A stretch of 32,972 nt of DNA, from the NCBI RefSeq assembly GCF_900142095.1, contig NZ_FQZP01000029.1:1-32972 (forward strand), in the 5' to 3' direction. Of the stretch, positions 3,239 through 29,796 are shown piece after piece. The notes under the pieces were generated by a model. The model searched no databases, had not been told where the DNA came from, and saw nothing but the letters and a program-made list of their open reading frames with translations. The stretch is from Thermoclostridium caenicola. Lineage in GTDB: Bacteria > Bacillota > Clostridia > DSM-8532. The translations under genes and the position numbers were made by a program. Positions within the stretch are counted from its first letter, which is position 1, and each line of letters starts with the position of its first letter.

Positions 3239-3297
3239 CCTGTCGCAGAACACTTTATCGGTAAACCGATTTTAACAAAGAATAGGAGGATATGAAG

Positions 3298-3678
3298 ATG
3301 AGCGAAAAGATCACAAAGTTCATTGAAGAGATCAAAGCCCTGTCCATTCTCGAGCTTAAGGAGCTTGTTAAGGCTATTGAAGAGGAATTCGGCGTATCTG
3401 CCGCACCTGTTGCTGTAGCAGCCGGCCCTGTTGCTGCTGGCGGCGCTGCTGCTCCCGCTGAGGAGAAGACCGAATTCGATGTTATCCTGAAGGATGCTGG
3501 TCCCGAGAAGATCAAGGTTATCAAGGTTGTTCGCGAGATCACCAACCTGGGTCTGAAGGAAGCCAAGGATGTTACCGAAAAGGTACCCAGCACCATCAAG
3601 GAAGGCGTATCCAAGGAAGAGGCAGAGTCTATCGCTGCCAAGTTCAAGGAAGTTGGCGCCGTTGTCGAAATCAAATAA
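3298..3678 (+). CDS. rplL: Large ribosomal subunit protein bL12 (L7/L12)
   Basis: bL12 forms the flexible stalk dimers that recruit translation GTPases. The protein has 126 residues: an N-terminal dimerisation domain ([20 protein letters not shown]), an Ala/Pro/Gly-rich hinge at about 38-55, and the C-terminal factor-binding domain with [21 protein letters not shown]. Two ATGs lie 6 bases apart; 3298 is preferred because AGGAGG (3284-3289) is 8 bases away but only 2 bases from 3292. A strong terminator follows. rpoB, its usual downstream neighbour, is absent. Confidence 0.97.
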
Positions 3679-3729: not shown

Positions 3730-3846
3730 GTTGTACCAGGGGCGGTCCTTCTGGTTCATTGACACAAAGCAGCACAAATGATGGCTTCGCGGGTTCCCGG
3801 CCGACGGGATTATTTCCCACTCCGATACTCGCTTGGACACCAGAAA

Positions 3847-4012
3847 GGGAGCCCGTAAAAGTTAAGGCGCATTGCGATTAGGTGCCAAAACATCCTGCGA
3901 GAATGGGACAAGGTCGGCCGCTGTTTGAGCGCAGTGAGTTCAGCCAACCCCCATTCGAATAGCCTGATGTTTTGCAGCCGTGCAGCACAGCGGCCGGCTT
4001 TTACGGGTTCCC
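3847..4012. repeat. Long imperfect inverted repeat / structured element of unknown identity
   Basis: The 500-base spacer 3679-4178 has no convincing gene but holds nested complementary arms. GGGAGCCCGTAAAAG (3847-3861) pairs over 15 bases, one G-U, with CTTTTACGGGTTCCC (3998-4012). CAAAACATC (3886-3894) pairs with GATGTTTTG (3966-3974). GAATGGG (3901-3907) pairs with CCCATTC (3950-3956). An inner stem at 3912-3923/3941-3949 caps a TTTGAGCGCAGTGAGTT loop. A 12-base copy CGGGTTCCCGGC occurs at 3790-3801 and 4004-4015. It could be a structured RNA or a dispersed intergenic repeat; I cannot name it. Confidence 0.65.
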
Positions 4013-4026
4013 GGCACCTGTGCTGC
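3982..4026. repeat. Hairpin overlapping the 3' arm of the inverted repeat
   Basis: GCAGCACAG (3982-3990) pairs perfectly with CTGTGCTGC (4018-4026), and inside it GCCGG (3993-3997) pairs with CCGGC (4011-4015). The loop contains the 3' closing arm of the larger repeat, so the two folds would exclude each other or make a pseudoknot. Confidence 0.55.
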
Positions 4027-4074
4027 ATTTACATTCATACGCCGGGCAAAATCTTCTGCCATGTTCCCTCTTCC

Positions 4075-4178: not shown

Positions 4179-5504
4179 TTGTCAAAACCAATTGTTGCCA
4201 TCGTCGGAAGGCCAAATGTCGGTAAGTCGACATTTTTTAATTACCTGGCAGGACGAAGGATATCCATCATCGATGATACTCCCGGCGTCACGCGGGACAG
4301 GATATATGCTGAAAGCGAATGGAGAGGCCGGAAGTTTACCATCATTGATACCGGCGGCATTGAGCCCAACACCGACGACTATATCAAGCAGCAGATGATC
4401 CAGCAGGCCCACATCGCCATTGACATGGCCCATGTGATCATCATGCTGGTGGACGTGAAAACTGGCCTGACAGCCCTGGATGAGGAAGTGGCCAATATCC
4501 TGAGAAAAGCGGATAAACCGGTTCTGTTGGCTGTCAATAAAGTGGACAATCCGGGCCAGCCGCCTGCGGATATCTATGAGTTCTACAACCTGGGTATGGG
4601 CGAGATCTATCCCATTTCTTCCATTCACGGGTTGGGGATTGGCGAGCTCCTTGATGCGGTTTATGAGCATTTTCCCAGTGCCGAGGAGCTGAGCGAGGAC
4701 GAGGACGCCATCAAGGTGGCTGTCATCGGCAGGCCCAATGTGGGTAAATCCTCCATCATCAACAGGATACTGGGCGAAGAACGGGTGATTGTCAGCGACA
4801 TCCCCGGCACCACGAGGGATGCCATTGATACGCATTTTGAAGTGAACGGCAAGCGCTATGTGTTCATCGATACTGCCGGCATCAGGCGGCAGAGCCGGGT
4901 GGATGATGAAATCGAGAAATACAGCGTGCTTCGCTCATGGGCAGCCGTGGACCGGGCCGATGTCTGCCTCATCATGCTGGATGCCCGGGACGGTGTGACC
5001 GAGCAGGATACCCGTATTGCAGGATATGCCCATGAACAGGGCAAGGCCTCCATCATTGTGGTCAATAAGTGGGATCTGGTTGAGAAGCAGACCGGAACGC
5101 TGGAGGAATACCGCAAAAAGGTCGGCCAGGACCTGGAATACATGAACTATGCGCCCATTGTCTTTGTTTCCGCGAAGACGGGGCAGCGCGTCCACAGGCT
5201 GTTCGAACTGATAGATTATGTATTCGACCAGGCCAGCCTGAGAATTCAGACCGGTGTCCTGAACGATGTGCTCAACGAAGCCATCGCCATGGTTCAGCCA
5301 CCCTCCGACAAGGGCAAGAGGCTGAAGATCTATTACATGACACAGACCGGTATACGGCCTCCGAGCTTTGTGCTTTTTGTCAATGACGCAGAATTGATGC
5401 ATTACTCCTATGAAAGGTACCTGAAAAACACCCTCAGGAGCAATTTCGGGTTTGAAGGGACGCCCATATGGTTTACCGTCAGGGAGAAGGGTGACAAGAC
5501 ATGA
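4179..5504 (+). CDS. der: Ribosome biogenesis GTPase Der (EngA)
   Basis: Der is a double-GTPase that matures the 50S subunit. The 441-residue protein has two complete G domains: GRPNVGKS at 10-17 with NKVD, and GRPNVGKS at 184-191 with NKWD. A KH-like C-terminal domain follows (about 350-441, ending in FEGTPIWFTVREK). The start is a TTG at 4179; GGAGGT (4165-4170) is 8 bases upstream and no ATG fits before the first P-loop. Its stop overlaps the plsY start by ATGA, implying translational coupling. der-plsY-gpsA is a common clostridial order. Confidence 0.96.
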   Translation: MSKPIVAIVGRPNVGKSTFFNYLAGRRISIIDDTPGVTRDRIYAESEWRGRKFTIIDTGGIEPNTDDYIKQQMIQQAHIAIDMAHVIIMLVDVKTGLTALDEEVANILRKADKPVLLAVNKVDNPGQPPADIYEFYNLGMGEIYPISSIHGLGIGELLDAVYEHFPSAEELSEDEDAIKVAVIGRPNVGKSSIINRILGEERVIVSDIPGTTRDAIDTHFEVNGKRYVFIDTAGIRRQSRVDDEIEKYSVLRSWAAVDRADVCLIMLDARDGVTEQDTRIAGYAHEQGKASIIVVNKWDLVEKQTGTLEEYRKKVGQDLEYMNYAPIVFVSAKTGQRVHRLFELIDYVFDQASLRIQTGVLNDVLNEAIAMVQPPSDKGKRLKIYYMTQTGIRPPSFVLFVNDAELMHYSYERYLKNTLRSNFGFEGTPIWFTVREKGDKT

Positions 5505-29491: not shown

Positions 29492-29524
29492 ATATACCTT
29501 TGCATAAAGCAAGTATATAAAGAT

Positions 29525-29697
29525 CTACCGATAGCTCTCCACTGTATATACCAGCGACAGTCGCATGGCTCTTAACCATACAACCAGGCAGCAGACCGGA
29601 CGGAATCATGCCCCTTCGGCATTTTCTCCTTTCGTCCGGGGTCATCGGGCCCGCCGCCCTTGCCCGGATTACTCTTAGAAAATGCGCCTCTATCTAT
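29525..29697 (-). ncRNA. Lysine riboswitch (L-box) upstream of dapA
   Basis: Read on the minus strand, the leader contains the L-box core in order: GATAGAGGCGCA, AAGAGTA, a GC stem, GAAAGGAGAAAATGCCGAAGG, CTGCCTGG, and the closing GAGAGCTATC. P1 pairs ATAG-type arms: CTATAGATAG at 29699-29690 with CTATCGGTAG at 29534-29525, one mismatch. A terminator follows 34 bases later. The known class binds lysine and stops transcription when lysine is plentiful. Genes controlled: dapA-dapB. Confidence 0.92.
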
Positions 29698-29796
29698 AGA
29701 TTATATTCAGTTTTATCGTTTCATTCCATACCCCGCGCAGGTTTTGACAAATGTCCAACCCATACGCACGCAAGAATGCTATGTAGGTTATCGTAA

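Follow-up and report, generated by a model that had tools for sequence, protein, structure and literature searches.

Structure of the inverted repeat between rplL and der

The gap between rplL and der in the window (the whole analysed stretch of 32,972 nucleotides) carries a long nested inverted repeat, which raises the question of what this structure is and whether it belongs to the locus. The original prediction proposed either a structured RNA or a dispersed repeat. The genome of the window is referred to here as G000, its congeners as G001 to G004, and two other Clostridia genomes as G347 and G160. Overall, the feature is probably a non-autonomous, MITE-like mobile element that inserted here and that folds over its full length into a single long hairpin with bulges and a conserved apical loop.

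The outer arms were found to be 15 nt each and 93% complementary, and both the nested inner helices and the apical loop predicted between them were recovered at the positions in Table 1. Folding of positions 3780-4030 on the + strand gave -105.5 kcal/mol compared to a shuffle mean of -86.05 (z -3.87) and none of 200 shuffles was equal, in agreement with the claim that the pairing exceeds chance. The prediction also included two competing folds, and the upstream CGGGTTCCC on which they depend does exist, but its flank is specific to this copy and the arrangement does not generalise to other copies. Another copy-specific competing pairing (3981-3997 with 4011-4027) lies partly beyond the element. 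The idea of a bistable switch rests on a copy-specific flank. The lone CGGGTTCCC is possibly the remnant of an older element copy, and similar remnants were seen in the rplL-der gap of G001 and G003. The apical motif GTTTGAGCGNAGCGAGTT was kept genus-wide and in hairpins from other families, and a sequence related to CATTGCGATtAGG, CATTGYGRA, was seen in other Clostridia families.

Table 1. Features of the hairpin element and its surroundings in the window
Feature	Position	Strand	Basis
Full-length mobile hairpin element, 166 bp, imperfect palindrome	3847-4012	+	15 full-length G000 copies; reciprocal covariance model match
Left terminal arm GGGAGCCCGTAAAAG	3847-3861	+	Family consensus GGGAKCCCGTAAA
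Right terminal arm CTTTTACGGGTTCCC	3998-4012	+	Family consensus TTTACGGGMTCCC
Conserved motif CATTGCGATtAGG, mostly unpaired	3870-3882	+	Near-invariant in genus-copy alignment
Apical loop and top stem TGTTTGAGCGCAGTGAGTT	3922-3940	+	Contains conserved motif GTTTGAGCGNAGCGAGTT
Lone CGGGTTCCC, outside the element	3790-3798	+	Flanks not common to other copies
rplL, upstream gene	3292-3678	+	ORF; orthologues in four congeners, DNA identity 84-88%
der, downstream gene	4179-5504	+	ORF; name from the original prediction

Rfam gave no relevant family match for the element. Two other structures in the window scored above the Rfam gathering score; an L10 leader upstream of the rplJL genes (2518-2660) and a lysine riboswitch on the - strand (29524-29700).

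Copy number, size variants and placement

A sequence search of G000 produced 32 matches to the element, 15 of them full-length with approximately 78-89% identity to the window copy. A search with the genus consensus found copies in all five genus genomes and in none of 56 other genomes at the DNA level. These matches confirmed a dispersed repeat. Full copies in the genus were mostly 160-170 bp. The element is short (about 166 bp), non-coding and dispersed in multiple copies (15 full copies and fragments), and it has terminal inverted repeats (GGGAKCCCGTAAA / TTTACGGGMTCCC), as in MITEs. Shorter forms with both usual ends were 104-107 bp in G000 and about 55 bp in G004, while longer forms with both usual ends (217-350 bp, G001 and G002) had the middle swapped for a cassette holding a TCATTGCGAGGAG-type repeat. 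Variants with a REP-like cassette in place of the hairpin middle were seen at loci L097-L103 of G001 and G002; of one orthologous pair (G002 C7 versus G001 C180), one member had two of them and the other had one. Truncated copies fused to terminator-like hairpins were observed at L029 (G000 C31:25731-25801), L027 (G000 C71:1775-1853) and L233 (1500-1540), and these look as if they were reused as gene terminators. The phage sequences searched held no element copies and the plasmid sequences searched held no full copy; one Variovorax plasmid matched 48 nt of the central hairpin and two other plasmids gave short weak matches.

Comparison of the orthologous rplL-der gaps showed one + copy in this genome, two tandem copies in G001 that were both inverted, one inverted copy and a remnant in G003, and no element in G004. 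No element was present in G002 in the stretch after rplL that precedes the contig end. As presence and orientation differ between congeners, this locus does not conserve the element. The proposal of a dispersed repeat was upheld by the copies found, and compensatory changes (see below) were found as well, while a non-coding RNA tied to the rplL-der locus was not supported, given the congeners with an inverted copy or no copy and the lack of strand bias. Copies showed no bias for a replication strand (9 of 21). By a crude longest-ORF rule, which misread some loci, among them rplL itself, 21 of 39 copies lay between convergent genes and the majority of copies were downstream of genes.

The element ends in the genus were GGGAKCCCG...CGGGMTCCC, with an A immediately outside the left end. 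No target site duplication was found in the genus, either directly beside the hairpin or at a fixed distance farther out. The empty-site search among the congeners recovered no clean site precisely without the element, and the insertion sites of G001 and G002 were mostly shared. The sole joined-flank match was rejected as an empty site, being the loss of one tandem unit and not a clean insertion.

Conservation of the fold within the genus

A total of 28 full copies were aligned with MAFFT, and the alignment was not fitted to structure. The consensus fold had 51 pairs, 14 of which were changed on both sides. The covariation score was 0.182 compared to 0.101 in shuffled alignments, with none of 500 shuffles as high, so the test of compensatory changes proposed for a real structure gave a positive result. 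Paired cells amounted to 97.8% compared to 93.5% in shuffles. With unpaired columns as the reference for expected counts, pair-breaking single changes were about 3.5-fold rarer than expected (30 observed, 104 expected), and 24 compensated double changes were observed where 4.3 doubles of any kind were expected. Selection on pairing is the simplest reading of this pattern, and arm-to-arm template switching within palindromes may add to the double changes. The count of G-U over A-C pairs on the + strand (26 to 15, not significant) hints weakly at the + strand.

Related hairpins in other Clostridia

A covariance model of the genus copies found full-length hairpins in 19 of 391 genomes of the class, belonging to 11 genera and seven families including its own. 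By this model, six further Clostridia families share the 165-nt hairpin and its tip TGTTTGAGCGNAGCGAGTT; stem sequences differed between families, but they had in common the apical motif and some of the internal-loop sequence. The reverse strand of true copies still scored 29-44 bits, showing that the covariance model rewards any long hairpin; homology is therefore overstated if judged by structure scores alone, and the E-values are approximate. Homology across families was supported by three controls. A reciprocal covariance model built from Clostridium-type hairpins found the genus copies end to end, with an E-value of 4e-5 for the window (3848-4011) and down to 2.5e-9 for others, and in 280 kb of G000 it found 12 known copies and nothing else. 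A sequence-only model ranked the same places with E-values of 3e-6 to 5e-3. Finally, stretches centred on the loop motif, a set that includes the genus copies, had a median of 51 pairs across the apex compared to 11 in random stretches. The argument for homology is carried by the shared loop and the sequence-only model. The Clostridium-type alignment also had 14 doubly changed pairs.

A search of viral contigs for the motif alone, with no regard to structure, added a few long hairpins that carry it at their tip, and some of these contigs looked like Bacteroidota. In the IMG/VR contigs L283, L284 and L287, hairpins tipped by the same TGTTTGAGCGAAGCGAGTTT precede hairpins of the GATACTTTYTTG type, which are typical of Bacteroidota. 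The open-access literature searched, with regard both to the loop and to MITEs of Clostridium, yielded no earlier description. Although an ordinary mobile repeat at this locus, the element belongs to an apparently undescribed, widely distributed hairpin family that conserves its structure, and the window copy is best read as belonging to a genus-level branch of this Clostridia-wide family.

The hairpin in G347 and G160 was found inside elements of approximately 199 bp with GGGTGCAT ends. Target duplications of 9 bp were perfect in 11 of the 17 elements examined in these two genomes and matched in at least eight of nine positions in 14. Some had lost sequence, leaving 37-108 bp, and others carried inserts; these hairpin-bearing elements are MITEs. 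No such outer GGGTGCAT-type ends or duplications were seen in the genus of the window, and for this reason the window element was classified as MITE-like and not as a MITE.

Neither G000 nor the listed G347 sites showed a transposase bracketed by a pair of element ends, the arrangement expected of an autonomous relative. Two GGGTGCAT end pairs of 2-3 kb in G347 were considered as autonomous parents and rejected, as they enclose a cellulase-like gene and other non-transposase genes. At L319 (G347 C2 1271272-1274571), the two halves of one hairpin MITE, without target duplication, enclose a cellulase-like gene whose C-terminus is dockerin-like. RAYT (Y1) was also rejected as the mover because G000 lacks it, many genomes that have no element possess it, and the element does not flank it. 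The Y1/RAYT gene of the four congeners (L155-L158) encodes 257-260 aa, is single copy and has neighbours common to G001, G002 and G004; the element does not flank it.

A second repeat adjoining the element

An abundant second palindromic repeat, AGATTGCC(A/G)CG...CTCGCAATGACA, adjoins the element at L009, L013, L019, L030 and many other G000 loci. A half-site of the repeat (AGATTGCC...CGCAATGACA in full) was found within 250 nt of 84% of element anchors in G000 compared to 5.7% of random positions, a control not limited to intergenic DNA. It resembles CGTC-type REPs (PMC3733652); Firmicutes are not among the CGTC-REP carriers listed there, and the repeat described here is from Clostridia. The exact junction CTCCCGGAGATTGCC occurred at four places and the reversed control pattern at none, even allowing two mismatches. 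The element end CTCCCGG was joined identically to AGATTGCC of the REP-like repeat at four unrelated places, L231-L234 (G000 C18, C22, C39 and C69). Composite movement of the two repeats or their repeated joining is therefore likely.

Alternative explanations

The strongest competitor is an ordinary DNA MITE whose fold is unselected and whose compensatory changes are due solely to template switching or to correction between the arms. Some double changes are indeed private to one copy and affect adjacent pairs (L019, pairs 59/111 and 60/109), but pair-breaking singles are depleted too (about 3.5-fold, as noted above), asymmetric internal loops remain asymmetric in the aligned copies and the loop sequence is common to several families, and we regard this explanation as unlikely. 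Less likely again is a family of structured non-coding RNAs, dispersed by duplication, of which each copy is transcribed and acts as RNA. It would account for the compensatory changes and conserved unpaired motifs, for the same fold and loop in seven families and for the non-significant G-U excess on the + strand. However, copies are conserved neither in orthologous position nor in orientation and have no strand bias, no promoter-like site was found within the element, Rfam gave no match, and the hairpin of G347 and G160 lies plainly within transposed units.

That the repeat is a REP-like element which a RAYT (Y1) transposase mobilises in the form of single-stranded hairpin DNA appears highly improbable. 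The hairpin, the lack of target duplication, the single-copy RAYT in G001-G004 and the proximity of CGTC-type REP half-sites (84% versus 5.7%, against a control not matched for intergenic DNA) would suit it, but RAYT is absent from G000, which is 99.98% complete and richest in full copies, and is frequent among genomes that lack the element (38 of 61 genomes). Around 30 further Y1 loci and three RAYT loci in the genus, no element was found within 1.5 kb, there was no replication-strand bias and relatives show 9-bp duplications. Least credible of all is a role in cis, as a terminator or regulatory RNA dedicated to rplL or der. Although one copy sits between both genes, no T-tract directly follows the element stem (the 3' arm is followed by GGCACC), no terminator was called with this stem, a separate hairpin with a TTTTG tail already lies 3' of rplL, and orthologous gaps lack the element or hold an inverted copy.

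Comparison with known repeats

The preferred reading, a MITE-like insertion, agrees with known bacterial MITEs (Correia/NEMIS, ERIC, RUP and Nezha; PMC3733652, PMC10969869) in size (70-300 bp), lack of coding sequence, terminal inverted repeats, intergenic dispersal and strong folds. The target duplications of the G347 and G160 relatives are a further likeness, whereas none occur in the genus of the window. The element differs from these MITEs in that its apical loop and fold were kept across bacterial families while the stem sequences changed almost wholly. REPs are hairpins of 20-40 bp with a tag tetranucleotide, GTAG or CGTC (PMC3733652). CGTC-tagged REPs are likewise short, intergenic, often paired palindromes, and a repeat of the CGTC/TGTC-ATTGC type adjoins or sits inside elements of the window type. 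The element itself, at 166 bp, without a tag and with different ends, is not a REP hairpin, nor is there a RAYT flanked by the repeat as in REP/REPIN systems, the gene being absent in G000 and elsewhere not flanked. RAYT-linked REPINs and TIR repeats (PMC3116915, PMC3733652) are also hairpin-forming and non-autonomous, and each congener has its Y1 gene in one copy, but G000 has no Y1 gene and no Y1 gene with the element at its sides was found. Candidate structured RNAs of palindromic type, described from human microbiomes, are 80-132 bp, mostly from Bacteroidetes and mostly terminators (PMC8040213); by this description they are set apart from the element of approximately 166 bp in Clostridia.

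Proposed mechanism and significance

The element is dispersed and mobile, its pairing was kept via compensatory changes and its kin are partly embedded in MITEs with 9-bp duplications. Counting against the MITE-like reading are the negative searches for target duplications in the genus, for an autonomous element with matching ends and for a clean empty site, together with the reward that covariance models give to any long hairpin and a possible share of template switching in the double changes. In the window, the element is situated beyond the terminator of rplL and probably serves no function tied to the site. A transposase acting on the element ends would spread it in trans, and the duplications of the relatives point to a DDE enzyme as the possible mover. 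The folded strand may be recognised or tolerated, during transposition or in read-through transcripts that carry the element in 3' untranslated regions, and the fold would be kept in this way.

Most bacterial MITEs are species-level relics, and their folds are taken for a side effect of the inverted ends. In this case, both fold and tip were kept across at least seven families while stems and outer ends were replaced, which suggests that something reads the fold. A bolder proposal, which we put forward tentatively as a possibility, is a mobile family spanning Clostridia and perhaps Bacteroidota in which selection acts on the folded strand itself, as RNA or as single-stranded DNA, with its tip TGTTTGAGCGNAGCGAGTTT; this strand would be what functions and what a host or transposon protein reads, and the transposon ends would be replaceable. 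The hairpins form a testable family outside Rfam, and the near-closed genome G347 (three contigs) carries insertions with clean duplications. The result is also a warning that an intergenic covariance signal can stem from mobile DNA and not from a locus-specific RNA. What is conserved is a shape, not a gene at this spot.
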